From NCBI RefSeq assembly GCF_003751225.1, contig NZ_RJKE01000001.1, positions 1,674,001 to 1,738,000 of the forward strand: a stretch of 64,000 bases of DNA, written 5' to 3'. A program made the translations under genes and the position numbers. Origin of the DNA: Actinocorallia herbida. Its GTDB lineage: Bacteria; Actinomycetota; Actinomycetes; Streptosporangiales; Streptosporangiaceae. The notes beneath the pieces were generated by a model, which was given only the letters and a program-made list of their open reading frames with translations, was not told the origin of the DNA and made no database searches. How positions within the stretch are numbered: position 1 is the first letter of the stretch; each line of letters begins with the position of its first letter. Below are positions 1-52,409 of this stretch, piece by piece.

Positions 1-20
1 CGACCTGCCGACTTGAGTGG

Positions 21-35418: not shown

Positions 35419-36399
35419 ATGGCGATGACCGGCGTGGTGAAGGACGAACTGAGCCGGCTGCCCATCATGAAGCCCTGCTGCCGGAAGGCCGAGGTGTCGA
35501 CGATCCTGCGCTTCGCGGGCGGGTTGCATCTGGTGAGCGGCAGGATCGTGATCGAGGCGGAGCTCGACACCGGGGCCGCCGCGCGCCGACTGCGCAAGGA
35601 CATCAACGAGGTCTTCGGGCACACGTCGGACGTGATCGTGCTGGCGCCGAGCGGGCTGCGCAAGGGCAACCGGTACGTGGTGCGGGTGATCCGGGACGGT
35701 GAGTCCCTGGCCCGGCAGACCGGCCTGATCGACAACAACGGCCGTCCGGTGCGCGGCCTGCCGCGGCACGTGGTGGCGGGGGCCGCCTGCGACGCCGAGT
35801 CGGCCTGGCGCGGCGCGTTCCTCGCGCACGGCTCGCTGACGGAGCCGGGCCGCTCGATGTCGATGGAGATCACCTGTCCGGGCCCGGAGGCGGCGCTCGC
35901 GCTCGTCGGCGCGGCCCGGCGGCTGAAGATCAACGCCAAGACCCGCGAGGTGCGCGGGGTGGACCGGGTCGTGGTCCGCGACGGCGACGCGATCTCGGCG
36001 CTGCTGACCCGGCTCGGCGCGCACGACAGCGTGCTGGCCTGGGAGGAACGGCGGATGCGCCGCGAGGTGCGGGCGACCGCCAACCGGCTGGCCAACTTCG
36101 ACGACGCCAACCTGCGCCGGTCGGCGCGGGCCGCGGTGGCGGCCGGGGCAAGGGTCGCCAGGGCGATGGAGATACTCGGCGAAGAGGCTCCGGACCACCT
36201 GATCGCCGCCGGTAGGCTCCGGTTGGAGCACAAGCAGGCTTCCCTGGAGGAGCTGGGCCAGCTCGCCTCGCCGCCGCTGACCAAGGACGCCATCGCGGGA
36301 CGGATCCGGCGGCTGCTGGCGATGGCCGACAAGCGGGCGTCCGATCTCGGACTTCCGGGGACCGAGGCGAATCTCACGCCGGACATGCTGGTCCCCTGA
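35419..36399 (+). CDS. whiA: sporulation/division regulator WhiA
   Basis: The protein has 326 residues. The N-terminal LAGLIDADG-type domain ([20 protein letters not shown] at the start) lacks nuclease activity in this family. A C-terminal DUF199 helix-turn-helix carries [20 protein letters not shown] and [12 protein letters not shown]. WhiA activates sporulation septation genes with WhiB in Streptomyces and is also conserved in non-sporulating Gram-positives. It is the last gene of the uvrC cluster. The ATG follows GAGAAGAGG. Confidence 0.95.
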
Positions 36400-36452
36400 C
36401 CCGCTCCGCCGGGCCCGGACGGCACCGGGGCACAGGCACGCTGCTCACGCCC

Positions 36453-36492
36453 CTGGTCTAAACCAGACATCTATACCAATTCGGTCTAGACC
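36453..36492. promoter_or_regulatory. two DasR-like palindromes upstream of gap
   Basis: Site 1 is CTGGTCTAAACCAG (36453-36466). Site 2 is GGTCTAGACC (36483-36492), a perfect 10-bp palindrome centred 28 bp away. Both resemble the Streptomyces DasR element TGGTCTAGACCA, bound by a GntR/HutC family repressor that senses aminosugar phosphates. A near-identical palindrome lies upstream of tkt at 59041. The rest of 36400-36664 holds the gap promoter region, which I could not define exactly. Confidence 0.65.
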
Positions 36493-36598
36493 TCCGGGAA
36501 CGCGGTCAGGGTGAAGGCGTCACCCCAGGTCCGGGGAGGTGCGTTCACCCCGCCGTTCAGCCCGTACCAGTACCGATCTTGCGCGACCCGTTCGGTAG

Positions 36599-37669
<1,071 letters not shown>

Positions 37670-37680
37670 GTAGTGCGCAC

Positions 37681-37719
37681 GGAACGGGGCTTTTCACCTG
37701 GGTGAAAGGCCCCGCTTCC
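37681..37719 (+). terminator. large hairpin between gap and pgk
   Basis: GGAA and CGGGGCTTTTCACC pair with GGTGAAAGGCCCCG and TTCC over a two-base TG turn, with one bulged C and one G-U pair. Because pgk follows on the same strand, it may partially terminate or stabilise the gap mRNA so that gap is made in excess. Confidence 0.7.
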
Positions 37720-37757
37720 GTTGCCGTCCGCTTTTCACTCCGGGTGTGAGGGGTTCC

Positions 37758-38945
37758 ATGAAGACTGTCGACGAGCTCGACGTGCGCGGTAAGAAGGTGC
37801 TGGTCCGGACGGACCTGAACGTGCCGCTCGACGGCGCGAAGATCACCGATGACGGGCGGATCCGGGCGAGCCTGCCCACGATCCGGCAGCTCGTGGAGAA
37901 GGGCGCGCGGGTCGTCGTCGTGGCGCACCTGGGCCGCCCCAAGGGCGAGCCGAAGCCCGAGTTCTCCCTCGGCCCGGTCGCCGGGCGCCTCGCCGAGCTG
38001 CTCGGCCAGGGCGTGGCGTTCGCCTCCGACACCGTCGGAGAGTCGGCCAAGGCCGTCGTGGCGGCGCTGGGCGACGGCGAGGTCGCGCTGCTGGAGAACC
38101 TGCGGTTCAACGCGGGCGAGACCAGCAAGGACGACGCCGAGCGCGGCGCGTTCGCCGACAGGCTCGCCGCTCTCGCGGACGTCTACGTCGGCGACGGCTT
38201 CGGCGCGGTGCACCGCAAGCACGCCTCGGTCTACGACGTGCCCCGCCGCCTCCCGCACGCGGCCGGCGGCCTCATCGCCACCGAGGTCGGCGTGCTGAAG
38301 AAGCTCACCAAGGACGTCGCCCGGCCTTATGCGGTCGTGCTCGGCGGCTCCAAGGTCTCCGACAAGCTCGGCGTCATCGACAACCTGCTGGAGACCGCCG
38401 ACCGCATCCTCATCGGCGGCGGCATGGTCTTCACCTTCCTCAAGGCCCAGGGCCACGAGGTCGGCAAGTCCCTCCTCGAAGAGGACCAGATCCCGGTCGT
38501 CCTCGACTACCTCGCGCGCGCCGAGGCCAAGGGCGTCGAGTTCGTCCTGCCCGTCGACATCGTCGCCGCGACCGCCTTCGCCGCGGACGCCGACCACGCC
38601 GTCGTCGCCGCGGACGCGATCCCCGCCGACCGGCTCGGCCTGGACATCGGCCCCGAGTCGGGCAAGCTGTTCGCCTCCCGGCTCGCCGACGCCAAGACGG
38701 TCTTCTGGAACGGCCCGATGGGCGTGTTCGAGATGGAGCCGTACTCCCACGGCACCCGCGCGGTCGCGCAGGGCCTGCTGGACTCGGCCGCCTTCACCGT
38801 CGTCGGCGGCGGCGACTCCGCGGCCGCGGTGCGCACCCTCGGGTTCGACGAGAACGCCTTCTCCCACATCTCCACCGGCGGCGGCGCCAGCCTCGAGTAC
38901 CTCGAAGGCAAGACCCTGCCCGGTCTCGAAGCTCTGGAGGACTGA
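37758..38945 (+). CDS. pgk: phosphoglycerate kinase
   Basis: The protein has 395 residues. ATG 37758 ([20 protein letters not shown]) is preferred over GTG 37746, which lies in the GAGGGG binding site. Substrate-binding [11 protein letters not shown], the hinge, and the nucleotide loop GGGDSAAAV with [11 protein letters not shown] are all present. It forms ATP and 3-phosphoglycerate. The start of tpiA is five bases after its stop. Confidence 0.96.
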
Positions 38946-38950
38946 TCCTT

Positions 38951-39736
38951 ATGGCCCGCAAGCCCCTCATGGCCGGCAACTGGAAGATGCACAACAACCA
39001 CCTCGAGGCGATCCTGCTCGTGCAGAAGATCTCCTTCGGGCTCAAGGACAAGGACCACGAGGCGGTCGAGGTCGCCGTCCTGCCCCCGTTCACCGACATC
39101 CGCTCGGTGCAGACCGTCGTCGACGCCGACAAGCTCAAGCTGGTCTACGGCTCGCAGGACATCTCGGCGCACGACAAGGGCGCCTACACCGGCGAGATCT
39201 CCGGCTCGATGCTGGCCAAGCTCGGCTGCACCTTCGCCACCATCGGGCACTCCGAGCGCCGCCAGTACCACGGTGAGGACGACGCCCTGGTCAACGCCAA
39301 GACCAAGGCCGCGCTGAAGAACGGGCTGACCCCGATCGTCTGCGTCGGCGAGGGCCTGGACGTCCGCAAGGCGGGCGAGCAGGTGCCCTACACCCTCGCG
39401 CAGGTCGACGGGGCCCTGGAGGGCCTGACCGCCGAGCAGGCCAAGACCGTCGTCATCGCCTACGAGCCCGTCTGGGCGATCGGCACCGGCGAGGTCGCGA
39501 CCCCCGAGGACGCCCAGGAGGTCTGCGGCGCGATCCGGGGCCGGCTGGCCAAGCTCTACGACACCGACGTGGCCGAGTCCGTGCGCGTCCTGTACGGCGG
39601 CTCGATGAAGTCCTCGAACGTGGCGGGCATCATGGCCAAGCCGGACGTGGACGGAGGCCTCATCGGCGGCGCGGCGCTCGACGCGGATGAATTCGTCAAG
39701 ATCTGCCGATACCGGGACCATTCGGCAGTGAGCTGA
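38951..39736 (+). CDS. tpiA: triosephosphate isomerase
   Basis: The protein has 261 residues. The catalytic Lys lies in AGNWKMHNN, the electrophilic His in [11 protein letters not shown] and the catalytic Glu in [12 protein letters not shown]. The phosphate-gripping loop VLYGGSMK and GLIGGAALD close the barrel. It interconverts dihydroxyacetone phosphate and glyceraldehyde-3-phosphate. It is the third gene of the glycolytic unit, probably co-transcribed with pgk. Confidence 0.97.
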
Positions 39737-39762
39737 CGCCAAACTTCAACGCCCGTGGGGTA

Positions 39763-39776
39763 GGTTCAGCTGAACC
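39763..39776. promoter_or_regulatory. 14-bp perfect palindrome in the secG promoter region
   Basis: GGTTCAGCTGAACC lies 27 bases after the tpiA stop and upstream of a possible -10 (CATAGC) of secG. It could be an operator. There is no loop, so it is less likely to be a terminator. Confidence 0.4.
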
Positions 39777-39890
39777 ACCGGCTCGTTCGTCGTACCCTTC
39801 ATAGCGTTGGGTAAACCGTTCGTCCGTGCCGGACGTCCTATACATTCAAACGAGCCCCGCAGCCGCGGGGCGGCTCAGAAGGCGCTAACC

Positions 39891-40130
39891 GTGATTCTTG
39901 CAACCTCGATCGTGCTGATCATCACGAGCCTGCTCTTGATCGTGCTCGTGCTGCTGCACAAGGGCAAGGGCGGAGGCCTGTCGGACATGTTCGGCGGCGG
40001 CATCTCCTCCTCGCTCGGCGGATCATCGGTCGTCGAGCGCAACCTGGACCGTCTCACGATCGCCACCGGAGTGATCTGGTTCGCCGCCATCGTGGTACTC
40101 GGCTTTCTGTACAAGGCCAAGGGCCTGTAG
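39891..40130 (+). CDS. secG: preprotein translocase subunit SecG
   Basis: The protein has 79 residues from GTG 39891 with AGAAGG upstream. It has two transmembrane segments, ATSIVLIITSLLLIVLVLLH at the N terminus and ATGVIWFAAIVVLGFLY at the C terminus. They are separated by the conserved KGKGGGLSDMFGGGISSSLG loop. It is an auxiliary SecYEG subunit. Its position after tpiA is conserved in actinobacteria. Confidence 0.95.
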   Translation: MILATSIVLIITSLLLIVLVLLHKGKGGGLSDMFGGGISSSLGGSSVVERNLDRLTIATGVIWFAAIVVLGFLYKAKGL

Positions 40131-40167
40131 ATCTGAGCGCAGCAGCGGCTGCAACAAACCTTTCGAA

Positions 40168-40194
40168 CGCGCCGGGAGCCTGGCTCCCGGCGCG
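40168..40194 (+). terminator. 12-bp stem terminator after secG
   Basis: CGCGCCGGGAGC pairs perfectly with GCTCCCGGCGCG around a three-base loop, 38 bases after the secG stop and upstream of rbpA. Confidence 0.85.
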
Positions 40195-40218
40195 CATGAT
40201 TCACTTTGAGGAGTGTCC

Positions 40219-40593
40219 GTGGCTAGTGGCAGTGCCATTCGCGGCAGCAGGGTAGGCGCCGGCCCGATGGGCGAGGCGGAGCGCGGCGAGGCCGCCCCTC
40301 GCGTCATCATCAGCTTCTACTGTGCCAACAAGCACGAGACCCGGCCCAGCTTCGCCAGCGACTGCCAGGTCCCCGAGACCTGGGACTGCCCGCGGTGCGG
40401 CCTGCCCGCCGGCACGGACTCCGCGAACCCGCCCGCGGCCCCCAAGAACGAGCCCTACAAGACCCACCTCGCCTACGTGAAGGAGCGCCGCTCCGACGCC
40501 GACGGCCAGGCCATCCTCGACGAGGCCCTCGGCAAGCTCCGTGAGCGCCGCCGTCTCGTCCAGGCCGCCATGGCGGCCGCGGCCCGCAACTAG
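40219..40593 (+). CDS. rbpA: RNA polymerase-binding protein RbpA
   Basis: The protein has 124 residues from GTG 40219 with GAGGAG at 40208. The first residues ASGSAIRGSRVGAGPMGEAE form the N-terminal tail that contacts the polymerase. A zinc-binding core has CANKH and CPRCG, and the basic C-terminal sigma-interaction helix region is [10 protein letters not shown]. It activates transcription with the principal sigma factor and affects rifampicin tolerance in Streptomyces and mycobacteria. I see no clear SigR-type promoter upstream. Confidence 0.96.
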   Translation: MASGSAIRGSRVGAGPMGEAERGEAAPRVIISFYCANKHETRPSFASDCQVPETWDCPRCGLPAGTDSANPPAAPKNEPYKTHLAYVKERRSDADGQAILDEALGKLRERRRLVQAAMAAAARN

Positions 40594-40607
40594 GGCTCCC
40601 GGCACAA

Positions 40608-40659
40608 GCGCGCAGAAGGCCCGGTTCCCCCGCGCGGGGGAACCGGGCCTTCTGCGCGC
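40608..40659 (+). terminator. 24-bp perfect stem terminator after rbpA
   Basis: GCGCGCAGAAGGCCCGG continuing into TTCCCCC pairs without mismatch with its complement across a GCGC tetraloop, a total of 24 bp. It begins 14 bases after the rbpA stop and insulates it from the accessory block that follows. Confidence 0.9.
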
Positions 40660-40700
40660 CCGGGGTGATCTCCGGGTGATCGCCGGGCTACCGTGGGCGC

Positions 40701-41051
40701 ATGGGACTGAAGCTGGCGGCGGTGACCGTGGACTGCGCGGAGCCGAGGAGCCTGGCGCGGTGGTGGGCCGACGCGCTGGGCGGGGAGATCGTCGCGGACT
40801 ACGAGGTCTACGTGGCGGTGGCCGGGGCCGGGGGAGTGCTCAGCTTCCAGAAGGTCCCGGCGCCGACACCGGGCAAGAACCGGATCCATGTGGACTTCGG
40901 GGCCGCCGACCGGACGGCGGAGGTAGCCCGGCTCATCGCGCTCGGCGCCGTCGAGGTCGGCACGCACACCTTCGGGGACCTCACCTGGACGGTCCTGGCC
41001 GATCCCGACGGCAACCGGTTCTGTGTCTCGGAGGAGTCTTCCGGCGGATGA
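40701..41051 (+). CDS. VOC superfamily glyoxalase-like protein
   Basis: The protein has 116 residues and a single vicinal-oxygen-chelate module pair: LAAVTVDCAEPRSLARWWAD, RIHVDFGAADRTAEVARLIA and TVLADPDGNRFCV. The DPDGN ending is typical of the glyoxalase-like family (PF18029 type). It could bind or modify a small molecule, but the metal ligands are incomplete and no substrate can be named. It is the first gene of the accessory block between rbpA and pgl. Confidence 0.8.
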   Translation: MGLKLAAVTVDCAEPRSLARWWADALGGEIVADYEVYVAVAGAGGVLSFQKVPAPTPGKNRIHVDFGAADRTAEVARLIALGAVEVGTHTFGDLTWTVLADPDGNRFCVSEESSGG

Positions 41052-41158
41052 TCCCGTGTTCGTGTGATGCCGTCGGGCACGCTGGGATCTACGGTGAAAG
41101 ATGACTGATCATCAACGGCGATATCGATCATCGGGGACGATGGCGGAGGAGCGGGGAC

Positions 41159-42499
41159 ATGGCTGAAGAGGCGGATGTCGTGGTCGTCGGGCTGGGGCCC
41201 GGTGGGGAGAACGCGGCGGGGCTGCTCGCGGAGGCGGGGCTCTCGGTGACGGCGGTGGAGGCCGGGCTGGTCGGCGGCGAGTGCCCGTACTACGGGTGCG
41301 TGCCGACGAAGATGATGGTCCGGGCCGCGGACGCGCTGGGCGAGGCGCGCCGGGTCCCGCACTTCGCCGGACGGGCCGAGGTCACCGCCGACTTCGGGGT
41401 CGCCGCGAAGCGGGTCAGGGAGCAGGCCACCGACGACTGGAACGACAAGGTCGCGGCCGACCGCCTCACCGGAAAGGGCGTCACCCTGGTGCGCGGGTAC
41501 GGCGTGCTGACGGGGCCTCGCGAGGTCACCGTCGGCGACCGGGTGATCCGGGGCCGCAAGGGCGTCCTGGTGAACCCGGGCACGGCGCCGCTCGTCCCGC
41601 CCATCGACGGGCTCGCTGGCACCCCCTTCTGGACCAACCGCGACGCCGTCAAGGCCACCGAGGCCCCGGTGTCGCTGATCGTGCTGGGCGGCGGCGCGAT
41701 CGGCGTCGAGCTGGCGCAGGTCTTCGCGAGGTTCGGCACGAAGGTGACCGTCGTCGAAGGCTCGGAAAGGCTCGTCGCCCCCTTGGAGCCGGAGGCGGGG
41801 GACCTGCTGCGCAAGGTCTTCGAGGCCGAGGGGATCACCGTGCACACCGGCGCCCGGGCGTCGCGGGTGGGCCACGACGGCGCGGAGTTCACCCTGGAGC
41901 TCGGCGGCCGGACCGTCCGGGCCGAGCGCCTGCTGGTCGCCACGGGCCGTAAGACCGACCTGGAGCGCCTCGGGGTCGCCGCCGTGGGGCTCGATCCCAA
42001 AGCGCGCTCCATCCCCGTCGACGGCCGGATGAGGGCCGGAGACGGCCTGTGGGCCATCGGCGACGCCACGGGCAAGGGCGCGTTCACGCACGTGTCGATG
42101 TACCAGTCGGCGATCGCGGTCCGCGACATCCTCGGCCAGGACGGCCCCGAGGCCGACTACCACGCGCTCCCGCACGTCACCTTCACCGATCCGGAGATCG
42201 GCGGGGTCGGGCTGACCGAGGCCAGGGCGCGGGAGGCGGGGATCGAGGTGCGCACCGCGACCACCGACATCGGCGCGTCCACCCGGGGCTGGATCCACGA
42301 GGCCGAGGGGTTCGTCAAGCTCGTGGCCGACGGCGACCACCTCGTCGGCGCCGCCGTCGCCGGCCCGTACGGCGGCGAGATCCTGGGCTTCCTGGCCCTC
42401 GCCGTCCAGGCCCGGGTCCCGGTGGAGACCCTCAAGCACATGATCTACGCCTACCCGACGTTCCACCGGGCGATCGAGGCGACGGTCGCCGAGCTCTGA
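41159..42499 (+). CDS. FAD-dependent pyridine nucleotide-disulfide oxidoreductase
   Basis: The protein has 446 residues. The FAD-binding GLGPGGENAAGLLAEAG, redox-active pair GGECPYYGCVPTKM (CxxxxC), NAD(P)-binding GGGAIGVELAQVFARFG and FAD site GDATGKG give the class I disulfide-reductase layout. At the C terminus the catalytic HPTxxE of lipoamide dehydrogenase is replaced by YPTFHR, so the usual His-Glu dyad is missing. The disulfide is present, so a mercuric-reductase-like or quinone/thiol reductase role is possible. It is not the E3 of a pyruvate dehydrogenase complex. GAGGAG precedes the ATG. Confidence 0.85.
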   Translation: MAEEADVVVVGLGPGGENAAGLLAEAGLSVTAVEAGLVGGECPYYGCVPTKMMVRAADALGEARRVPHFAGRAEVTADFGVAAKRVREQATDDWNDKVAADRLTGKGVTLVRGYGVLTGPREVTVGDRVIRGRKGVLVNPGTAPLVPPIDGLAGTPFWTNRDAVKATEAPVSLIVLGGGAIGVELAQVFARFGTKVTVVEGSERLVAPLEPEAGDLLRKVFEAEGITVHTGARASRVGHDGAEFTLELGGRTVRAERLLVATGRKTDLERLGVAAVGLDPKARSIPVDGRMRAGDGLWAIGDATGKGAFTHVSMYQSAIAVRDILGQDGPEADYHALPHVTFTDPEIGGVGLTEARAREAGIEVRTATTDIGASTRGWIHEAEGFVKLVADGDHLVGAAVAGPYGGEILGFLALAVQARVPVETLKHMIYAYPTFHRAIEATVAEL

Positions 42500-42569
42500 C
42501 CGGATCGTTCCGCCCCCGGGCCAGGCCGTGTCTGTCCGGGGGCGGCCGGGGCCGGGCAGTATCGGGGGC

Positions 42570-43151
42570 ATGACCCGAGCACACCTCGTCATCGACGTCC
42601 AGGAGTCCTTCCGCGCGCTGCCGTCCTGGGAGGTGATCTCCGAGCCCAAGATCGCCGACCGGGTCGGCGAACTCGTCGCGGGCGCCAGGGAGAGGGGCGA
42701 CCTCGTCGTCTGGATCCTGCACGCCGCGGCCGGCTCGGGCACCGCCTTCGACCCGGCCCTCGGCCTCGTCCGCCCGCTGGACGAGCTGGCGCCGCTGCCG
42801 GACGAGCCCGTCCTCACCAAGACCGCGCACAACGCCTTCACCACCACCGGCCTGCACAAGCTGCTCACCGAGCGGGGGATCACCGAGGTCTCGGTCAGCG
42901 GCATCCGCACCGAGCAGTGCGTGGAGACCACCGCGCGGGTCGCGTCCGACCTCGGCTTCGCCGTGCTGTTCGTCACCGAGGCGACCGCCACCCATCCGCT
43001 GGGCGCCCCCGGCACCCCGCCCGACGCCTCCGCGGCCGACCTGCTGGCCGACCCCCGGACGCTCCCGGCCGCGGAGGTCATCCGCAGGACCGAGTACGCC
43101 CTGTCCGGAAGGTTCGCGCGGATCGCCACCATCGCGGACGCCATAGGCTGA
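42570..43151 (+). CDS. isochorismatase-fold cysteine hydrolase
   Basis: The protein has 193 residues from ATG 42570, apparently with CAGTAT as a near -10. The catalytic triad is visible as Asp9 (LVIDVQESF), Lys84 (VLTKTAHNAF) and Cys117 (GIRTEQCVET). Such enzymes hydrolyse amides, for example nicotinamide or related compounds. The substrate is not identifiable. The next gene, seven bases on, encodes a GlxA-type regulator, a frequent partner of this family. Confidence 0.88.
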   Translation: MTRAHLVIDVQESFRALPSWEVISEPKIADRVGELVAGARERGDLVVWILHAAAGSGTAFDPALGLVRPLDELAPLPDEPVLTKTAHNAFTTTGLHKLLTERGITEVSVSGIRTEQCVETTARVASDLGFAVLFVTEATATHPLGAPGTPPDASAADLLADPRTLPAAEVIRRTEYALSGRFARIATIADAIG

Positions 43152-43158
43152 CCAGATC

Positions 43159-44133
43159 ATGTCGAAGGTCGTGTTCCTGCTGCTGCCGGGCATCCATCTG
43201 CTGGACCTCGCGGGACCCGCGCAGGTCTTCTCCTCGGCGTCCGAACTCGGCTTCGGCTACGACCTGCACTACGTCGCCGAGCGGCCGCGGGTGCCCTCGC
43301 ACCAGGGGCTCCCGCTGGCCGCCGGGACCAGCTGGCCCGATCTCGGTCCCGACGACCTGGTGCTGGTCCCCGGCTGGCACGGCACGAGCCCCGTCGGGGC
43401 GGACGCGGCCCGCCGTCTCGCGGCGCACCACGCGGGCGGCGGGACCGTCGCGAGCGTCTGCGCCGGGGCCGACGCGCTGGGCAGGGCGGGCCTGCTCGAC
43501 GGCCGCCGCTGCACCACCCACCACGCGCTCCAGGACGCCCTGGCCCGGCGGTATCCGAAGGCCACGGTCGTCCGGGACATCCTCTACGTCGCCGACGACC
43601 GGGTGGTGACGTCGGCGGGGATCGCCAGCGGCACCGACCTCGCGCTGCACCTCCTGGCCGAGAGGCACGGGCCCGCCGCGGCGGCGCGGGTGGCCCGATC
43701 GATGGTCGTCTACGTGCGCCGCAACGGTGACGAGCCGCAGGCCAGCGTCATGCTCGCGCACCGCGCGCACCTGTCCGACGCCGTCCACCGGGTGCAGGAC
43801 CTCATCGACGCACGCTTCGCCGAGCCGCTGACGCTCGCCGGCCTCGCCGCGCACGCCGGGGTCAGCCCGCGCACCCTGACCCGCCGCTTCACCGCCGCGA
43901 CCGGCCTCACCCCGCTGCGCTACCAGCAGCTCCTGCGCGCCGAGCACGCCGAGCGGCTGATCGCCCGGGGCGGCACGGTCGAGGCGGCGGCCCATGCCGT
44001 GGGCTTCCAGGACGCCCGCATGCTCCGCCGGCTGCGCGCCCGCGGGGGCGGGGCGGACACCCGTCTGGAGGAGGAGCCGGGCGCGTCAGGATCGGCATTC
44101 CGGAGGAGGGGAACGGGATTCCCCGTTCCCTAG
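43159..44133 (+). CDS. GlxA family transcriptional regulator (DJ-1/PfpI plus AraC)
   Basis: The protein has 324 residues. The N-terminal DJ-1/PfpI-like domain (1-190) has the nucleophile-elbow Cys101 in ASVCAGADAL. The C-terminal AraC domain (about 215-310) has LAAHAGVSPRTLTRRFTAAT and AAAHAVGFQDARMLRRL. Such regulators control adjacent amidase-like genes, here the isochorismatase-fold enzyme with which it is probably co-transcribed. The C-terminal tail after the AraC domain is Gly/Arg-rich, and its last codons overlap a hairpin. Confidence 0.9.
   Translation: MSKVVFLLLPGIHLLDLAGPAQVFSSASELGFGYDLHYVAERPRVPSHQGLPLAAGTSWPDLGPDDLVLVPGWHGTSPVGADAARRLAAHHAGGGTVASVCAGADALGRAGLLDGRRCTTHHALQDALARRYPKATVVRDILYVADDRVVTSAGIASGTDLALHLLAERHGPAAAARVARSMVVYVRRNGDEPQASVMLAHRAHLSDAVHRVQDLIDARFAEPLTLAGLAAHAGVSPRTLTRRFTAATGLTPLRYQQLLRAEHAERLIARGGTVEAAAHAVGFQDARMLRRLRARGGGADTRLEEEPGASGSAFRRRGTGFPVP
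44109..44130. terminator. hairpin over the 3' end of the glxA-like gene
   Basis: GGGAACGGG pairs with CCCGTTCCC over ATTC, ending directly before the TAG stop. It lies just ahead of TAGTCT, the likely -10 of the next gene, so it could be a terminator or an operator. Confidence 0.5.
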
Positions 44134-44143
44134 TCTGAAGTGC

Positions 44144-44950
44144 ATGACAGCGGGCGATACCGGACGGCGATTGGCAGAACCCGGTGAACTGGACACCCGG
44201 GTCGAGGTGTACACGCTGGCGCTCGACGGGCGCCGCTACGAGCTGGTGTGCGCGAAGTCGGGGGCGCTGGGCGTCCGGGCGCGGCTGCTGGTGGACGGCG
44301 AGGAGCGGGCCGAGACGGTCAAGGAGCTGGAGTCGCTCAAGCTCGCCGACGGCGACCTGGCGATCGAGGTCAAAGTCGACTTCCGTCGCCGCCCGAAGAA
44401 GATCAAGGCCAGGTTCGCGGGCCGTGAGGTGCACTTCATCCCGCCCGAGGGCTCACACCTCGCCAAGCTGGAGCGCTGGGAACGCGAACGCCCGCTCCGC
44501 TACGCCTCCCGCCACGTCCTCATCGCCACCGCCCAGGTCCTGATCCCCCTGCTGGGCCTCAGCGCCCTGCTCCGCCTGCTCGTCCCCCGCGTCGACTGGC
44601 CCGACCTGCCGCACCTCGACCTGCCGTCCGTCCCCTGGCCGGACCTCCCCGACCTGCGCCCGGACCTCGACCTCCCGGACCTCACGCCCCCGCAATGGCT
44701 CCAGCCGCTTCTCGACGCGGGCAAGCTCCTCGGCCCGATCCTCCTGGCCGTCGCCATCGCCGTTCGCGAGATCCGCAAGAACCGCCGCAAGTTCGCCGCC
44801 CGAGAGGCCGCCGCCCGCGCCTCCCGGAACGCCTCCGACGGGCCGGTGGAAGGCCCCCGTGCGGCAGCGGCGGAGCCCCGGGACGAGGGGGCCCGCTCCG
44901 GCGCCGAAGGCACGGCGGACGCGGACCCGGAGCGCGGCCCGGAGCGCTAG
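44144..44950 (+). CDS. two-TM membrane protein with Pro-Asp-Leu loop
   Basis: The protein has 268 residues from ATG 44144, apparently leaderless (TAGTCT seven bases upstream). The N-terminal cytoplasmic domain of about 115 residues is beta-rich and charged (VDFRRRPKKIKARFAGREVH). A membrane segment covers residues 124-147 and a second about 190-208. Between them (148-183) lies a loop built of PDL/LDLP units, such as WPDLPHLDLP and WPDLPDLRPDLDLPDL. The cytoplasmic tail is Arg- then Glu/Ala-rich. I do not recognise the family. Its TAG stop shares CTAG with the stop of the convergent maoC gene. Confidence 0.7.
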   Translation: MTAGDTGRRLAEPGELDTRVEVYTLALDGRRYELVCAKSGALGVRARLLVDGEERAETVKELESLKLADGDLAIEVKVDFRRRPKKIKARFAGREVHFIPPEGSHLAKLERWERERPLRYASRHVLIATAQVLIPLLGLSALLRLLVPRVDWPDLPHLDLPSVPWPDLPDLRPDLDLPDLTPPQWLQPLLDAGKLLGPILLAVAIAVREIRKNRRKFAAREAAARASRNASDGPVEGPRAAAAEPRDEGARSGAEGTADADPERGPER

Positions 44951-45405
44951 TTGTCGCGGTAGAGGGCCAGAACTTCGGCGACGCAGGCGGGGCGGCGCTG
45001 GCCGTCGATCTCCATGGTGACCTTGAGGGTGCCGAGCTTGCCGGCGGGGGAGTTCTTGAGGTCCATGAGGACGGCCCTGGCGCGGACCTTGGCGCCGACG
45101 GGGACGGGGGTGTGGAAGCGGACCTTGTTCAGGCCGAAGTTCACCACCATCGTCAGGGACTCGACGGCGAAGGTCTGCGCGACGTGGGAGGTGACGAGGC
45201 TCAGGGTCAGGTAGCCGTGCGCGATGGTGGTGCCGAACGGGCTCTCGGTCGCGGCCCGCTCGGGGTCGATGTGGATCCACTGGTGGTCACCCGTGGCGTC
45301 GGCGAAGGTGTTCACCTGCTCCTGGGTGATCTCCTGCCACTCGCTGTGGCCGAGTTCCTCGCCGACGGCCGCGGCGAACTCCGCAAGATCGGTGAACGTG
45401 CGCAT
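44947..45405 (-). CDS. MaoC-like (R)-specific enoyl-CoA hydratase
   Basis: The protein has 152 residues from ATG 45405 with GAGGAG eight bases upstream. It is a single hot-dog domain with the hydratase-2 catalytic Asp/His in FADATGDHQWIHIDPERA and the NodN-like GTTIAHGYLTLSL. It would hydrate trans-2-enoyl-CoA to the (R)-3-hydroxyacyl-CoA. It stands alone, divergent from the dienelactone hydrolase gene, with no other beta-oxidation genes nearby. Confidence 0.9.
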   Translation of the reverse strand: MRTFTDLAEFAAAVGEELGHSEWQEITQEQVNTFADATGDHQWIHIDPERAATESPFGTTIAHGYLTLSLVTSHVAQTFAVESLTMVVNFGLNKVRFHTPVPVGAKVRARAVLMDLKNSPAGKLGTLKVTMEIDGQRRPACVAEVLALYRDN

Positions 45406-45531
45406 GGGGGCAACTCCTCGGGGGTCGGTCGGATTGGGATATTCCAGCACGACCCGCCGGTCAGTGCGAACCGGCCCCCTGGTCGGCGGGCCGGTTGGAC
45501 GGGCCCCGGTGATCTCTGATATCCGGACCCG

Positions 45532-46296
45532 ATGAACCAGACCATCGACTCCGCAGACGCGTTCACCTCGGGCACGATCCCGATCCCCGGCCATCAGGGC
45601 GACGAGATCGAGGCCTACCTGGCCCGTCCCCTGGCGGCCGCGCCGCGCGGCGGCGTGATCGTGCTGCACCACATGCCCGGGTACGACGAGGGAAGCAAGG
45701 AGATCGTGCGCAGGTTCGCCGCGCGCGGCTACAACGCGATCATGCCGAACCTGCACTACCGGGACGCGCCGGGCGCCGACCCGGACGACGCCGCGGCGGC
45801 CAGCCGGGCGAACGGGGGCGTCCCGGACGAGCGGCTCGTCGGGGACGCCGCGGGCGCCGCCGCCCGCCTGCGGGGCCTGCCGAACGCCAACGGCAGGGTC
45901 GGCGTCATCGGCTACTGCTCGGGCGGCCGCCAGGCGTTCCTCGCGGCCTGCTCCCTCGATCTGGACGCCGCGGTGGACTGCTACGGCGCGTTCGTCACCG
46001 CCCACTCGCCCGACGGCTACCCCGTCGTCGTCCCGCCCGTCGTGGGGCTGGCGAAGGACCTGGCGTGCCCGCTGCTCGGCCTGTTCGGCGCCGACGACAA
46101 GTTCCCCGCGCCGAGCGAGACCGCCGAGCTGTCCGCGGTCCTCACCGAGCTGGGCAAGGAGTTCGAGTTCCACACCTACGAGGGCGCGGGCCACGCGTTC
46201 TTCTCGGTGAACCGTCCGGCCTACCGCCCGGAGGCCGCGGTGTCGGGCTGGGCGCGCGTGTTCGACTTCTACGGGCGGCACCTGCACACCCGGTAG
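45532..46296 (+). CDS. dienelactone hydrolase family protein
   Basis: The protein has 254 residues. It has an alpha/beta-hydrolase fold with the dienelactone-hydrolase triad Cys129 (GYCSGGR), Asp188 (GADDKFP) and His221 (GAGHAFF). The early VLHHMPGYDEGSKEI forms the oxyanion region. It is close to carboxymethylenebutenolidases of chlorocatechol pathways, but other such genes are absent, so a general lactone or ester hydrolase is more likely. TGATAT upstream may be a -10 box. Confidence 0.88.
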   Translation: MNQTIDSADAFTSGTIPIPGHQGDEIEAYLARPLAAAPRGGVIVLHHMPGYDEGSKEIVRRFAARGYNAIMPNLHYRDAPGADPDDAAAASRANGGVPDERLVGDAAGAAARLRGLPNANGRVGVIGYCSGGRQAFLAACSLDLDAAVDCYGAFVTAHSPDGYPVVVPPVVGLAKDLACPLLGLFGADDKFPAPSETAELSAVLTELGKEFEFHTYEGAGHAFFSVNRPAYRPEAAVSGWARVFDFYGRHLHTR

Positions 46297-46363
46297 CCGC
46301 CCCGCGGCCCGGACGGGCGGCGCGCGGCCGCCGCCGTCCGGCGCCATGGCAGGCTAGGACGCC

Positions 46364-46642
46364 ATGTGCACCTATCACACCGAGTTCGCCGAACTGGAGG
46401 GCAGCGCCAAGGGCAAGGACGGATGGTTCTCCGTCACCCGCGCCGCCGTCTACGTCGACCACCCGTACCACGCGCCGCTGGACCACTCGGTGAACATCGA
46501 CTTCACCGCGCCCGAGCTCGGGCCGGCCGCCCGGGTGGCGGTGGAGCTGACCGAGGAGTCCGCGCGCGCCCTCGTCGCGGCGATCGAGGCGGCGCTCGCC
46601 GCCGCGCCCCCCGGCCTCGCGGCGAGCCCCGCGAAGTCCTGA
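46364..46642 (+). CDS. DUF6295 family small protein
   Basis: The protein has 92 residues, beginning MCTYHTEFAELEGSAKGKDG and ending with an Ala-rich helix (ALVAAIEAALAAA). The pattern with DHPYHAPLDHSVNIDF and a fixed VAVELTEESARALV matches what I recall of the actinobacterial DUF6295 family. The function is unknown. The conserved Cys, His and Asp residues could bind metal. It is convergent with the histidine phosphatase gene, seven bases away. Confidence 0.75.
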   Translation: MCTYHTEFAELEGSAKGKDGWFSVTRAAVYVDHPYHAPLDHSVNIDFTAPELGPAARVAVELTEESARALVAAIEAALAAAPPGLAASPAKS

Positions 46643-46649
46643 GCGCGCC

Positions 46650-47288
46650 TCAGTCGAGAAAGGACGCGTCGTTGTAGAGGACGCGGGTCCCTTCGCGCCA
46701 GTGCGAGACCGAGGCGTTGCCGATCGTCTCCTTCTCGATCTCCATCACCTCGGCCTCCGTCAGGCCCTCGACGATGTACCGGAAGAGCACGATCACCGCG
46801 TCGTGCGTGGCGATGAGGACCCTGCCGTCGGAGGGGAGCTCGGCGAGCAGCGAGCGCAGCCGCAGGGCCACGTCGGTCCAGGACTCCCCGCCGGGCGGCC
46901 GGTGGTAGAACTTGCCGAGGAACGCCTGCCTGGCGTGCTCCTCGGGGTGGCCGAGCCGGATCCCCGAGGGGGTGAGCCCGGCGAACGCGCCGAGGTCGCG
47001 GTCGCGCAGCCGCTCGTCGATCCGCAGGTCCGGGGGGAACCCCGCGGTGGCGAGCGCGATCCGCGCGGTCTCCAGGGCGCGCACGTACGGCGAGGACAGC
47101 ACGAGCGTCGGCGGCGGGCGCCCGGCGAGGTACCCGCCGACCGCGGCGGCCTGCCGCTCGCCCAGCGGGGTGAGCGGGATGTCGGAGTCGCGCTCGCCGA
47201 GGCCCAGGGCGTCGGCGCCCGCGAGGATCGCCGCCTCGCGTGCGACGTTGCCCGTGCTCTGCCCGTGCCGGATCAGCGTCAGCTCCAT
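46650..47288 (-). CDS. histidine phosphatase (phosphoglycerate mutase-like) family protein
   Basis: The protein has 212 residues. The catalytic RHG motif is in LTLIRHGQSTGN, with a second His region VLIATHDAVIV, Arg in SSPYVRALETARIA, and an acid in RDLGAFAGL. It is a cofactor-independent-type phosphatase of the branch that includes PhoE and GpgP. The substrate is not evident, and it is unlikely to be the glycolytic mutase because it lacks that enzyme's extended motifs. Confidence 0.88.
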   Translation of the reverse strand: MELTLIRHGQSTGNVAREAAILAGADALGLGERDSDIPLTPLGERQAAAVGGYLAGRPPPTLVLSSPYVRALETARIALATAGFPPDLRIDERLRDRDLGAFAGLTPSGIRLGHPEEHARQAFLGKFYHRPPGGESWTDVALRLRSLLAELPSDGRVLIATHDAVIVLFRYIVEGLTEAEVMEIEKETIGNASVSHWREGTRVLYNDASFLD

Positions 47289-47343
47289 GCCGCCCTCCTA
47301 CCCAGTCCCCGGCCCGATCGAGCGGGACCGCGCGCCGGGTCCG

Positions 47344-48729
47344 TCAGCGGCCGGAGATCAGGTCGGCGACCTTGGCGATCTTCGACGTCCTGCGCAGGCC
47401 GCGCTCGCGCGCGTCGGCGCGCTTGTAGAGGCCGTACATGAGGTGGACGCCGAGCCAGCGGAGCGGCTCCGGCTCCCAGGGCCGCACGTGCCAGCCGACC
47501 CAGGGCAGGTCGGTGAGCTCGGTCCGCTCGTCCAGCACGAGGTCGCGCAGGGTGCGGCCGGCGAGGTTGGTGGTGGCGACGCCGTGGCCGGTGTACCCGC
47601 CGGCGTGGCCGAGGCCGCTGCGCCGGTCCAGCGCGGCGGTCGAGCACCAGTCGCGCGGCACCGCGAGCACCCCCGACCAGGCGTGTGCGACGGGCACGCG
47701 CGCGGCCGCGGGGAAGAAGTCGGCGAGCATGGCGTGCAGCTGGCGGATCGTGCGCTCGTGGGTGCGGCCCGCGTCGTCGATGCGCGAGCCGTACCGGTAG
47801 GGCTTGCCGCGGCCGCCGAAGGCGATCCTGCCGTCCGCCGTGCGCTGCGCGTACATGTAGTAGTGCGCCATGTCGCCGAGCAGTTCCGCGCCCCGCCACC
47901 CCGTCTCGGCCAGGACGTCCGGGGGCAGCGGCTCGGTGACGATCATCGAGCTGTTCATCGGCAGCCAGTCGCGGTGCAGCGGCCGGAACGCCGCGGTGAA
48001 CCCCTCGGTGGCCCGGATGACGTACTCGGCGGTCACCCGTCCGTACGGGGTGAGCGCGGCGGCCGAGGAGGTGATGGTCCTGGGCCGCAGCGCGGTGACC
48101 TCGGTGCCCTCGTACAGCTCCACGCCGAGGTTCTGGACGATCCTGGCGAGCCCGCGCACCAGCTTGGCGGGCTGCACCCGGGCGCAGTGCGGGGTGTACA
48201 TGGCGTCGACGGCCCCGGCGACCCGGATCCGCTCGCCCGGCTCGATCAGGCGGAGGTCGTCCCCGCCCCAGCCCCAGGCCCGCGCGTGCGCGATCTCCTG
48301 CCGCATCCGCCAGCGCTGCGCCCGGTTGCGCGCGACCGTCACCAGGCCGTCCTGGACGAGGTCGGCGTCGACGCCCTCCTTCGCCGCGACCCGCACGACC
48401 TCGGCGACCGCGTCGAACATCGCGTGCTGGAGCCGGATGACGGAGTCCCGCCCGAACCGCTCGGCGTACGCGGCGCCCGACCCGGCCAGCTCGCCGACGA
48501 CCCAGCCGCCGTTGCGCCCGGACGCCCCGAACCCCGCGAACTCCTTCTCCAGGACGACGATCCGCAGATCCGGCCGCGCCTTCTTGAGGTAGTAGGCGGT
48601 CCACAGGCCCGTGTACCCCGCGCCGACCAGGCAGACATCGGCCTGGATCGAGCCGGGCAGCCGTGGCGCGGGGGAGGGCAGTCCCGTCTCGCTGAACCAG
48701 TGGGACACCGCGCCGTTCACGAAAGCCAT
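47344..48729 (-). CDS. FAD-dependent amine/amino acid oxidoreductase (DAO family)
   Basis: The protein has 461 residues. The dinucleotide-binding motif is VCLVGAGYTGLWTAYYLKKA near residue 33, with GFGASGRNGGW following as in the gamma-glutamylputrescine oxidase and glycine oxidase group. The C terminus closes with GGYTGHGVATTNLAGRTLRD for the flavin. It probably oxidises an amine or amino acid with release of ammonia and hydrogen peroxide. The substrate is unknown. It stands alone on the minus strand. Confidence 0.88.
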   Translation of the reverse strand: MAFVNGAVSHWFSETGLPSPAPRLPGSIQADVCLVGAGYTGLWTAYYLKKARPDLRIVVLEKEFAGFGASGRNGGWVVGELAGSGAAYAERFGRDSVIRLQHAMFDAVAEVVRVAAKEGVDADLVQDGLVTVARNRAQRWRMRQEIAHARAWGWGGDDLRLIEPGERIRVAGAVDAMYTPHCARVQPAKLVRGLARIVQNLGVELYEGTEVTALRPRTITSSAAALTPYGRVTAEYVIRATEGFTAAFRPLHRDWLPMNSSMIVTEPLPPDVLAETGWRGAELLGDMAHYYMYAQRTADGRIAFGGRGKPYRYGSRIDDAGRTHERTIRQLHAMLADFFPAAARVPVAHAWSGVLAVPRDWCSTAALDRRSGLGHAGGYTGHGVATTNLAGRTLRDLVLDERTELTDLPWVGWHVRPWEPEPLRWLGVHLMYGLYKRADARERGLRRTSKIAKVADLISGR

Positions 48730-48859
48730 GCCGACATAGTGCTTGATCTCCGCTCCTTTGTCGCTCCTGCGCCGCCCGGGTGATCGGGCGCCCCGGCCCC
48801 GGGTCTCGACGGGTGGACGGGGGAGACCAACGTCACGCCGGTTTTCCGGCCCGGGAAAC

Positions 48860-48877
48860 CGAGTTCACACGAACTCG
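48860..48877. promoter_or_regulatory. 18-bp palindrome upstream of a GNAT gene
   Basis: CGAGTTC and GAACTCG flank ACAC, 50 bases ahead of the GNAT start. Symmetry and position suggest an operator, but no regulator gene is adjacent. The remaining bases 48730-48926 include the 17-bp sequence shared with the region upstream of uvrC. Confidence 0.5.
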
Positions 48878-48926
48878 TAACACTGATCGGAGAGTCTTAC
48901 TGAATCGAGAAAGAAGGGGGATTCCG

Positions 48927-49454
48927 ATGATTTCCACAGCCGCGGCGCCCGCCGTGATCCGGCCCGGGGCGTCCGGGCTCACCACACGTCCGCTGGGTCC
49001 GGGGGACCAGGCCGAGGTGGTGGCGATGCACGAGCGGTGCTCCATGGCGAGCCGCCGGCTTCGCTACTTCAGCGCGAAGCCGAAGCTGCCGCAGCGCCTG
49101 TTCGACGTGTTCTGCGACAGGTCCCGGGGGCTGTCCCTGGCCGTCGACGACGAGTCGGGGCGGGTCATCGCGCTCGGCCACATGATGTACGACGGCGCCT
49201 CGGGGGCGGCGGAGCTGGCCTTCCTCGTCGAGGACGCGTGGCAGAACCGGGGGATCGGCCGCCGGCTGACCGAGCTGCTGGTCGAACTGGGCCGCGCCGA
49301 GGGGCTCGCGGAGCTGCGCGCGAGCGTGTTCAGCGAGAACGCCAGGATGCGCAAGCTCCTCACCGCGCTCGGCGGCCGGACCCGGCGGACCGAGGACCCC
49401 GCGGTCCTGGAGATCGTGCTGGACCTGCGCGGGGCCGAAGCCGCCGCTGCGTAA
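48927..49454 (+). CDS. GNAT family N-acetyltransferase
   Basis: The protein has 175 residues from ATG 48927 with GAAGGGGG upstream. The motif A loop VEDAWQNRGIGRRLTELLVE (Q-N-R-G-I-G) and the preceding LGHMMYDGASGAAELAFLV define the acetyl-CoA site. ASRRLRYFSAKPKLPQRL near the N terminus is seen in the acetyltransferase domains attached to acyl-CoA synthetases and in Pat-like enzymes, so protein lysine acetylation is possible. There is no cNMP-binding domain. Confidence 0.85.
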   Translation: MISTAAAPAVIRPGASGLTTRPLGPGDQAEVVAMHERCSMASRRLRYFSAKPKLPQRLFDVFCDRSRGLSLAVDDESGRVIALGHMMYDGASGAAELAFLVEDAWQNRGIGRRLTELLVELGRAEGLAELRASVFSENARMRKLLTALGGRTRRTEDPAVLEIVLDLRGAEAAAA

Positions 49455-49484
49455 GGAACGCTCCACTCTTGAGACGATGGCCGG

Positions 49485-50279
49485 GTGGCCATCTACGACG
49501 ATCCCGAAGCCTATGAACTCGCCTGCGCCTTCCGCGACGTCCCCGCCGAGGCCGACGCGCTGCTGACCTGGGCGGCCCGGCACGGCAGGGAGCCCCGGAC
49601 CGTCCTGGAGCTGGCGGCGGGCCCCGCCGAGCACGTCAGGGAGCTGGCCCGCCGGGGCCTCGCGTGCACCGCGCTCGACCTGAACGCCGCGATGTGCGCC
49701 TACGCCAAGGCCAAGGAGCCCCGGCTCACCGTCGTCCAGGCCGACATGACGGACTTCGCCCTCGCCGAGCGGTTCGATCTGGTGATCACGATGCTGGACA
49801 GCACCGCGCACCTGCACACCCTCGACGCGTTCGCCGCCCACTTCGACCGCGCCGCCGCCCACCTCGCCACCGGCGGCGTCTACATCCTGGAGATGAGCCA
49901 CCCGGCCGACCGGCTCGGCCGCGACTCCTCCACCACCACCTCCTGGACCGCCGAGCGCGACGGGACCACCGCCGACGTCACCTGGGGCTCCCTCGACGAC
50001 CCCCTCGACCCCCTCACCCAGATGGTCGACGACCACGTCGTCATCCGCGTCACCGAGCCGCCCGCCCGGCCGGGCGGCCCCACCCGCGTCCGCACCGCCG
50101 AGGGCGTCGTCCCCTTCCGCTTCTGGACCGCCACCGAGCTCCAGGCCGCCGTCCGCGTCGCCGCCCTGGAACACCCGGAGACGGCCCTGGAGATCGTCGC
50201 TCAGTACGGCGACTTCACCGACGTCCCGCCCGCCGACCCGGCGGCCTGGCGCCTGATCAGCGTCTTGCGCAGGCTGTAG
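49485..50279 (+). CDS. class I SAM-dependent methyltransferase
   Basis: The protein has 264 residues from GTG 49485. Motif I is VLELAAGPAEHVRELARRG, motif II CTALDLNAAMCAYA and motif III VVQADMTDFALAERFDLVIT. The remainder is a beta-rich cap. The order and spacing are those of small-molecule methyltransferases, and no substrate can be named. It follows the GNAT gene by 30 bases and may share its transcript. Confidence 0.88.
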   Translation: MAIYDDPEAYELACAFRDVPAEADALLTWAARHGREPRTVLELAAGPAEHVRELARRGLACTALDLNAAMCAYAKAKEPRLTVVQADMTDFALAERFDLVITMLDSTAHLHTLDAFAAHFDRAAAHLATGGVYILEMSHPADRLGRDSSTTTSWTAERDGTTADVTWGSLDDPLDPLTQMVDDHVVIRVTEPPARPGGPTRVRTAEGVVPFRFWTATELQAAVRVAALEHPETALEIVAQYGDFTDVPPADPAAWRLISVLRRL

Positions 50280-50320
50280 ACGGGCACGGCTGCCGGGCCC
50301 GTGCGGGTATCTTGCTCGAT

Positions 50321-50590
50321 ATGTCTGAACCCATGACCGCGGCGGAGGCCGAACGCTTCATCGTGACCATGGTGCCCGTCGTGGCGCAGCACCTCGCCGA
50401 GAGCGGGCGGTTCCGGATCAGCGCGTGGACCGAGGAGCTCCAGGCGGTGTTCCGTGAGATCACCGGCCGGACGTCGGCGGCGCTCGGGCGGCCGCTGATG
50501 GGGTACACGAACGGCCGCGAGTTCTGGATCGTGCCGTCGGACGCGGCGGACGAGGTGGACGTGAACGCGGCGGCGCCCCTCACTCCTTGA
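50321..50590 (+). CDS. small protein of unknown function
   Basis: The protein has 89 residues. ATG 50321 is preceded at short distance by TATCTT, suggesting a leaderless mRNA. The N-terminal part is helical and acidic (AAEAERFIVTMVPVVAQHLA). The centre has a conserved-looking GRPLMGYTNGREFWIVPSDA. There is no signal peptide or Cys. The stop lies inside a terminator hairpin, which supports a real gene. I do not recognise the family. Confidence 0.6.
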   Translation: MSEPMTAAEAERFIVTMVPVVAQHLAESGRFRISAWTEELQAVFREITGRTSAALGRPLMGYTNGREFWIVPSDAADEVDVNAAAPLTP

Positions 50591-50602: not shown

Positions 50603-50618
50603 GTAGCGCGCGCCGAGG

Positions 50619-51380
50619 TCAGCCCGGAAGGCGGGACGCGGCGGCGCGGTCGAGCAGGTAGAGCGTCTCCGTGCGGCCCCGCGCCGTGGACACGGGGGCC
50701 TCCGAAGGGGACGTGCCGGTTGCCAGGCCGAGGCGGATGGCCTCCGCCTTGCCCTCGCCCGCGGCGACGACCCAGACCTCACGGGCCGCCTGGATCACCG
50801 GGACGGTCAGGGACACCCGGGTCGGCGGCGGCTTGGGGGAGTCGTGCACCCCGATGACGGTCCGCTTGTCCTCCAGCACGCCGGGCAGGCCGGGGAACAG
50901 CGACGCGATGTGCGCGTCCGGGCCGACCCCGAGCATGAGCACGTCGAACGACGGCGCCTCCACCGGGTCCTCCGGCTTGGCGGCGGCCCGCAGTTCGGCG
51001 GCGTGCCGGACGGCCGCGGCCTCCACGTCGTCGCCGTCCGGGCCGTCGGAGGCGGGCATCGGGTGGACCCGGGCGGGGTCCAGCGGCACCGCGTCGAGCA
51101 GCGCCTCCCTGGCCTGGAGGGCGTTGCGGTCGGCGTCGCCCTCGGGCACGAACCGCTCGTCGCCCCACCACACGTCGACCTTGGCCCAGTCGACGGCGTC
51201 GCGCGCGGGCGAGGCGGCGACCTCGGCGAGCAGCGCGATCCCGACGGTCCCGCCCGTCAGCACGATCGAGGCCTCGCCCCGTTCGGCCTGGACGTCGACG
51301 ATCCGGGTGATCAGCCGGGCCGCGACGGCCCGCGCGAGCAGGTCCGCGTCCGCGTGGACGATGATCTTCGGTGCGCTCAT
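50619..51380 (-). CDS. pgl: 6-phosphogluconolactonase
   Basis: The protein has 253 residues and hydrolyses 6-phosphogluconolactone in the oxidative pentose phosphate pathway. Family motifs are VLTGGTVGIALL, VWWGDERFVPEGDADRN and LGVGPDAHIASLFPG. The ATG overlaps the opcA stop by four bases. It is the last gene of the tkt-tal-pgi-zwf-opcA-pgl run. Confidence 0.94.
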   Translation of the reverse strand: MSAPKIIVHADADLLARAVAARLITRIVDVQAERGEASIVLTGGTVGIALLAEVAASPARDAVDWAKVDVWWGDERFVPEGDADRNALQAREALLDAVPLDPARVHPMPASDGPDGDDVEAAAVRHAAELRAAAKPEDPVEAPSFDVLMLGVGPDAHIASLFPGLPGVLEDKRTVIGVHDSPKPPPTRVSLTVPVIQAAREVWVVAAGEGKAEAIRLGLATGTSPSEAPVSTARGRTETLYLLDRAAASRLPG

Positions 51381-52408
51381 GATCCGGCCTTCCTGCGGGT
51401 GGCGCGCGGCTTGGCGGGTCCGCCCGCAGGGGCGTCCCCGGCGGCCTCGGCCCCGGCGTCGTCCTTGGCGGCGGCCGCGGGCTCGGGCGCGGGCGCCGGG
51501 GAGGTGTAGGTGCGGTCGAACCGCGAGACGGCGTCGTGGTAGACCTCGTCCGGGTCGAGCCGCCGCAGCTCCTCGGCCAGCAGCTCCGACATCGGCCTGC
51601 GGTGCAGCGCGACCTGTCGGTCGGGCTGGCCGGGCCGGGCCAGCGTGGCGACGCGGCCGTCGGGCCTGGTCACCGAGATCGGCCCCTCCTCGGTCTGGAG
51701 GACGACCGCGGTGATGCCGGGACCGTTGGACGTGGTCCGGGTCGCGGGCACGTCGAGCCGCCCGCCCAGCCAGGACGCCAGCAGCTCCGCGCTCGGGCTG
51801 TCGGGTTCGGCCTGCACCTCCGCCGCGATGATCGGCGGAGTCTTCTGGTCCAGCGCCGACGCCAGCAGCGTGCGCCACGGGGTGAGCCGGGTCCAGGAGA
51901 AGTCGGTGTCTCCCGGCACGTAGGACTTGTCGAGCTGGATGAGCGTGCCGAGCCGGTCCATGCCGGCGTAGGAGTCGGTGACGCGGCGCTGCGCGAGCGC
52001 GCCCAGCGGGTCGTCCGACGGGTGCGCGGGCGCCTGCCCCGGCCACCAGGTGACGACGGGCGCGTCCGGCACCACCAGCGGCAGCACGACCGAGTCGGCG
52101 TGCTCGGCGAGCGGCCCGTACATGCGCAGCAGGACGGTCTCGCCGGGGCCGGTCTCGCCGATCCTGATCTCGGCGTCCAGCCGGGAGGAGTTCCCGCGGG
52201 CGTCCCGCGAGATGACCGTGAGGACCCGGCAGGGGTGCTCGCGCGCCGCCTCGGTGGCCGCGCGCAGCGAGTCGTACTGCGCGGACTCGTCGGTGACGAT
52301 CACCAGGGTCAGCACCATGCCGACGGCCGGGCCGCCCATCTGGTGCCTGGCCTGGGTGAGCGCCTCCTGGATCCGCCGGGTCGTGGTCGCGGTGAGGTCG
52401 ATGTTCAC
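51377..52408 (-). CDS. opcA: glucose-6-phosphate dehydrogenase assembly protein OpcA
   Basis: The protein has 343 residues with a GTG start one base after the zwf stop. The core includes PLVVPDAPVVTWWPGQAPAH and DPLGALAQRRVTDSY, found throughout the actinobacterial OpcA family. OpcA is needed for full G6PDH activity and its redox response. The C-terminal 50 residues are a Pro/Ala/Lys-rich tail (ATRRKAGS end) without a fold. Confidence 0.94.
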   Translation of the reverse strand: MNIDLTATTTRRIQEALTQARHQMGGPAVGMVLTLVIVTDESAQYDSLRAATEAAREHPCRVLTVISRDARGNSSRLDAEIRIGETGPGETVLLRMYGPLAEHADSVVLPLVVPDAPVVTWWPGQAPAHPSDDPLGALAQRRVTDSYAGMDRLGTLIQLDKSYVPGDTDFSWTRLTPWRTLLASALDQKTPPIIAAEVQAEPDSPSAELLASWLGGRLDVPATRTTSNGPGITAVVLQTEEGPISVTRPDGRVATLARPGQPDRQVALHRRPMSELLAEELRRLDPDEVYHDAVSRFDRTYTSPAPAPEPAAAAKDDAGAEAAGDAPAGGPAKPRATRRKAGS

Positions 52409-52409
52409 G

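Follow-up and report, generated by a model that had tools for sequence, protein, structure and literature searches.

A long perfect hairpin behind an RbpA-family gene of Actinocorallia herbida, a putative U-poor terminator or 3'-end stabiliser

In the soil actinobacterium Actinocorallia herbida, an exact palindrome lies between an RbpA-family gene and a block of twelve genes that is followed by the 6-phosphogluconolactonase gene, pgl. This position raises the question of whether the palindrome marks the border of the block or belongs to the gene that it follows. The whole stretch of DNA analysed, here called the window, is 64,000 nucleotides long, and the features of the locus are collected in Table 1. 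A sequence-only reading had described a terminator with a 24-bp perfect stem, among the strongest hairpins in the window, which separates rbpA from about 10 kb of genes and marks the border of an accessory block.

Table 1. Features around the palindrome in the window, and folding behind rbpA in four relatives with pgl close by
Feature	Position	Strand	Description
secG	39807..40130	+	upstream in the gap-pgk-tpi-secG-rbpA run
RbpA-family gene	40213..40593	+	Pfam RbpA, 135.3 bits; paralogue of the canonical RbpA
Perfect palindrome	40608..40659	+	arms 26+26 (40608-40633 / 40634-40659), 100% complementary, no spacer
Inner 14-bp stem	40618..40649	+	GGCCCGG..CCGGGCC; the TTCT behind it is absorbed by the full stem
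Twelve-gene block, rbpA to pgl	40701..50279	.	Pfam matches
Block members 1-6			glyoxalase-like, FAD/NAD oxidoreductase, isochorismatase-like, DJ-1/AraC regulator, seemingly membrane-bound protein without Pfam match, MaoC
Block members 7-12			dienelactone hydrolase, DUF6295, histidine phosphatase, DAO, GNAT, methyltransferase
Glyoxalase-like gene	40701..41051	+	first of the block, co-directional, start 41 nt past the hairpin
pgl (6-phosphogluconolactonase)	50619..51400	-	right anchor of the variable interval; then opcA, zwf
Streptomyces sp. LS1784 (L068)			z -4.9; perfect stem 17 bp
Streptomyces sp. RPT161 (L070)			z -8.6; perfect stem 19 bp
Kitasatospora purpeofusca (L081)			z -8.4; perfect stem 22 bp
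Knoellia koreensis (L037)			z -1.4, weak

The structural part of that description was borne out. As RNA, the palindrome forms a stem of 24 bp closed by a 4-nt CGCG loop, at -58.2 kcal/mol (z -10.5), and none of 200 shuffles gave an equal or better fold. Among the 25 longest of the window's 54 inverted repeats, no other perfect one reaches its length, and the only non-overlapping pair listed with longer arms, 7099-7178, is 78% complementary. The junction is also where it had been placed, with the stop codon ending at 40593, 14 nt before the start of the hairpin, and pgl at 50619.

The length of the stem exceeds what chance produces in this DNA. Over 60 dinucleotide shuffles of the window, used as the chance control for perfect stems, the longest perfect stem was 13 bp. 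Perfect stems with 12 bp or more and a loop of 3-10 were then counted in a genome sample of 40 spread 20-kb stretches plus the window, 864 kb in all, or about 9% of the 9.8-Mb single-contig genome. The 24-bp stem ranks first among the 58 found and is followed by stems of 21 and 20 bp, whereas one shuffle per stretch yielded 5 stems altogether, none longer than 13 bp. Gene 3' ends, taken as within 150 nt of a stop in genes from a simple GC3 caller, host 47 of the 58 stems: 35 lie at the 3' end of one gene, 12 at converging 3' ends, 9 elsewhere and 2 in coding sequence. All 14 stems of 16 bp or more in the sample are near gene 3' ends. Of the 34 stems of at least 14 bp, 17 are followed on one strand or both by a stretch of 8 nt with three or more U. 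This clustering and these U counts indicate that long perfect hairpins behind genes, U-tailed or not, are common in the genome, and that the hairpin at 40608-40659 is the extreme case of a common class.

The gene before the hairpin had been named rbpA. Its membership in the RbpA family is clear from Pfam, but it is not the canonical RbpA. The window protein matches an RbpA chain in the PDB (8dy7_G) at E 6.9e-12, and a second RbpA-family gene of the same genome, at about 6,546,104, matches the PDB RbpA chain at E 1.9e-43. By these similarities, the copy near 6,546,104 is the canonical RbpA and the window gene is a paralogue; the identity of the window gene with canonical RbpA was rejected. A literature search on the name RbpB found no paper, and the paralogue is left unnamed. 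In A. populi, the RbpA-family protein is 95-96% identical to that of the window. At least two RbpA-family matches were present in 87 of the 100 genomes searched, and in A. herbida it is the copy of the gap-pgk-tpi-secG run that stands further from characterised RbpA. A second perfect palindrome, 40168-40194 (13+13, 1-nt spacer), lies between secG and rbpA, 37 nt past secG, and may represent an end or attenuation of the transcript between these genes.

The best 80 RbpA-family loci of named records among the matches listed were taken as relatives. The gene order pgk, tpi, secG, rbpA was found in all 80, and gap is present in 78, the two exceptions beginning too near a contig end. The 75 nt past the rbpA stop were folded in 82 loci, namely the window, these 80 loci and the congener G002. 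All loci of the G series except L116 were excluded from the 82-locus counts, because some short ones had evidently been translated out of frame or beyond the stop codon and because some duplicate named species. Folding reached z < -2 in 57 of the 82 loci, z < -3 in 47 and z < -4 in 26, compared with 2, 1 and 0 loci in a downstream control at 180-255 nt. Points against a 3'-end role are the 25 loci, one of them G002, that fail to reach z < -2 over these 75 nt, the coding control, in which 19 of 82 loci reached z < -2, and the lack of a U-run past the stem in the window.

Both congeners have a hairpin in the interval downstream of rbpA, with a sequence unlike that of the window. In A. populi (G001) it is imperfect and followed by TCTTCG (z -2.7). 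In G002 it lies about 66 nt past the rbpA stop and is followed by TTTTTGT (z -2.8). One of 200 shuffles was as good in each case, and both signals are modest. The fixed 75-nt stretch gave only z -0.4 for G002, because the hairpin is partly beyond it. The best-hairpin listing, in which nearby pairs may prolong a stem (for the window, to 28 bp in 65 nt), served for inspection only.

Four loci provide the comparison that the border claim calls for, namely relatives with rbpA directly beside pgl. In these loci pgl lies 85-100 bp past the rbpA stop, measured to the edge of the pgl match, and the block is lacking. Strong hairpins stay behind rbpA in three of the four, in two Streptomyces and in Kitasatospora, and that of Knoellia is weak (Table 1). 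This result speaks against reading the hairpin as the border mark of an accessory block. Folding behind rbpA in most relatives, including three of the four block-free loci, argues that the hairpin goes with the RbpA-family gene, and on this comparison it belongs to that gene and not to a border. The case also shows that a hairpin located at a synteny break can be part of the conserved flank and not of the variable block.

The block had been called accessory, and this holds only at a wider range. All twelve genes are collinear in G002, with 52-89% identity, compared with 81-96% for the backbone genes tested. A. populi has five of the twelve (oxidoreductase, MaoC, histidine phosphatase, GNAT and methyltransferase); its interval measures about 16 kb, and the genes interspersed there include those of ABC-transporter, permease, histidine-kinase and RPE65-type proteins. 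Because of this conservation within the genus, the block is not a strain-specific insert. Block genes in relatives were counted downstream of rbpA when at least half of the length was matched, and the counts are lower bounds since the loci extend at most 10 kb downstream. Among the best 80 named loci listed, GNAT occurs in at least 11, DAO in at least 9 and the methyltransferase in at least 9, and these three recur 3' of rbpA in other, non-Streptomyces actinobacteria. The oxidoreductase and MaoC occur in one locus each (A. populi), and the other seven genes in none of the 80 within the 10 kb or less downstream of rbpA; at least one block gene is present in 17 of the 80. The rbpA-pgl interval ranges from 85 bp to 10.0 kb where pgl was found (43 of 82 loci, partial matches counted). 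With a stricter filter on the best 80 named loci listed, pgl was found in 39, was not found within at least 9 kb in 31, and 10 were too short. Judged from these gene orders, the interval is a variable stretch between conserved anchors across the wider group.

Could the palindrome nevertheless be a border feature of an inserted block, for example an integration scar or a target site? It does sit at the junction, no block gene was seen in Streptomyces loci within 10 kb downstream of rbpA, and the GC content of the block (0.734) is slightly above that of the left flank (0.708), the right flank (0.720) and the window (0.725), a small difference. This origin is barely credible, however, given the strong hairpins at the same place in block-free relatives and the conserved gene order of the block in a congener that has a different hairpin. 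Pfam matches to the scanned proteins of the block include neither an integrase nor a transposase, and the genome contains no further exact copy of the palindrome's 17-base arm core. A repeated mobile palindrome was ruled out, as only the palindrome's own two arms match this core exactly. With up to two mismatches, the core gave 10 forward and 3 reverse matches in the genome, the two arms counted, and its reversed control gave 2 forward and 3 reverse, a forward excess on the side of the arm core. In a 488-base search of the genome, in which 40 of 490 first-look candidates were scored, the palindrome matched itself, and the only further hits were weak ones to the rest of the query.

The palindrome could also act as DNA, as a cruciform or as the operator of a DNA-binding protein, and might in this way control the glyoxalase-like gene. 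Its 52 bp form a perfect DNA palindrome just upstream of the start of that gene, and it also folds as single-stranded DNA. We regard this role as highly unlikely, since hairpins trail the rbpA stop in relatives whichever gene is next, the congeners keep a hairpin while its sequence changes, and the arm core is not repeated exactly elsewhere. The glyoxalase-like gene itself has TACCGT six bases ahead of its ATG (TACCGT-N6-ATG), and the congener has TAGTGT seven bases ahead. We take these motifs to resemble leaderless starts. Such a motif precedes 36 of 2343 ATG frames in the genome sample, internal ATGs counted, and it is only suggestive of a fresh transcription unit beyond the hairpin.

The remaining reading, that the hairpin is the 3'-end hairpin of the RbpA-family transcript, whether by self-termination or by Rho and capping, is very probably correct. 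The word terminator used in the sequence-only reading is well supported in so far as position and relatives point to a hairpin of terminator type closing this gene at its 3' end, but the canonical U-tailed form is not what was found. Past the full stem the sequence is CCCGGGGT, with one T in 8 nt and no T-run. Unlike in a canonical terminator, the TTCT is paired into the extended stem and no U-rich tract follows directly; the congener G002 has the U-tailed form behind the same gene. A standard terminator scan of 36000-55000, which demands a T-rich tail, did not list the hairpin, and this promoter and terminator scan is uninformative for this GC-rich genome. Rfam gave no match at gathering score in the window, and a known RNA family was on this ground ruled out as the identity of the hairpin.

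The best reading is therefore a putative U-poor, or I-shaped, terminator or 3'-end stabiliser of a known kind. I-shaped terminators are stable GC-rich stem-loops with a short loop, as in the fold given above. They lie within about 50 bp downstream of a stop codon (PMC12288462), and the distance here is 14 nt. Over the 8 nt past the stem their U count stays below three (PMC8269248), and the hairpin has one. It resembles the HS-U-lack ends of Streptomyces clavuligerus in its very stable GC-rich stem, short loop, position directly past the stop and few Us; in that species, 353 of 535 highly structured ends have fewer than three U and are related by the authors to I-shaped terminators or to Rho-made ends (PMC8269248). 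Stable stem-loops with few Us lie at mapped Streptomyces transcript ends (PMC8269248, PMC12207403). According to PMC12207403, Streptomyces has the longest and most stable hairpins with the lowest U content, only 4-6.6% of its transcript ends satisfy the canonical definition, and its U-rich terminators are described as the stronger ones. In S. avermitilis, the folding energies of U-lacking ends resemble those of random intergenic sequence, and most such ends are ascribed to Rho or processing (PMC8780764). A review describes I-shaped terminators in mycobacteria and cites work that by its title holds a U-tract to be required (PMC12288462). The 24 perfect base pairs exceed those of all other perfect stems in our genome sample. 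Bidirectional terminators of convergent genes share the symmetric perfect stem, and such stems occur in three relatives with convergent rbpA and pgl, but the next gene in the window is co-directional and one direction suffices.

In the I-shaped terminator reading, the transcript would start at rbpA or upstream in the gap-pgk-tpi-secG run, and the 24-bp stem would fold in the RNA once the RbpA-family gene has been read, just past the place of the terminating ribosome. Most likely, the stem itself would pause and release RNA polymerase, and it would then cap the released 3' end against exonucleases. By either route, the transcript would be kept out of the glyoxalase-like gene 41 nt on. Termination with 3' capping is favoured because this co-directional gene starts so close.

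Alternatively, within the same 3'-end role, transcription might be ended further on by Rho and the RNA then degraded by exonucleases as far as the stem, whose function would be only to protect the 3' end. We hold this possibility tentatively, as less likely than stem-driven release. It agrees with the absence of a U-run beyond the full stem, with a Rho encoded at 8200819-8202624 (657.8 bits, over the cut-off) and with the Rho or processing explanation offered for U-poor Streptomyces ends in PMC8269248 and PMC8780764. However, protection would hardly seem to call for a stem of anything like this length, the short distance to the next gene would leave little room for a Rho site, and the inner 14-bp stem followed by TTCT may allow weak intrinsic release. 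A second Rho-like frame, at 8819411-8820463, scores 471.2 bits, under the curated cut-off.

A bolder idea is that the lineage replaced U-tracts by very long perfect stems, and that the hairpin alone, with its would-be U-tail paired in, terminates without Rho. We consider it unlikely; if true, a terminator behind the gene of an RNA-polymerase-binding protein would be an extreme natural test case. The hairpin by itself matters little. Because a congener has a U-tailed hairpin behind the same gene, the locus is a clean natural setting for testing whether actinobacterial RNA polymerase terminates at perfect hairpins that are poor in U.

Other repeats were noticed in this genome. In the window, three hairpins that lie within 1 kb (18389-18423, 18444-18488 and 19254-19294) share a CCGCYCA...TGRGCGGA-like core and look like a repeated element. 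The inverted repeats at 6831-6921 and 7099-7178 have a GACCGTTTCC-type core and look like clustered operator or repeat sites. At about 9,091,420 of the genome (L174, 11420-11464), a perfect palindrome with a 20-bp stem lies between convergent genes and contains two TTATCCACA motifs, which we presume to be DnaA-box-like.
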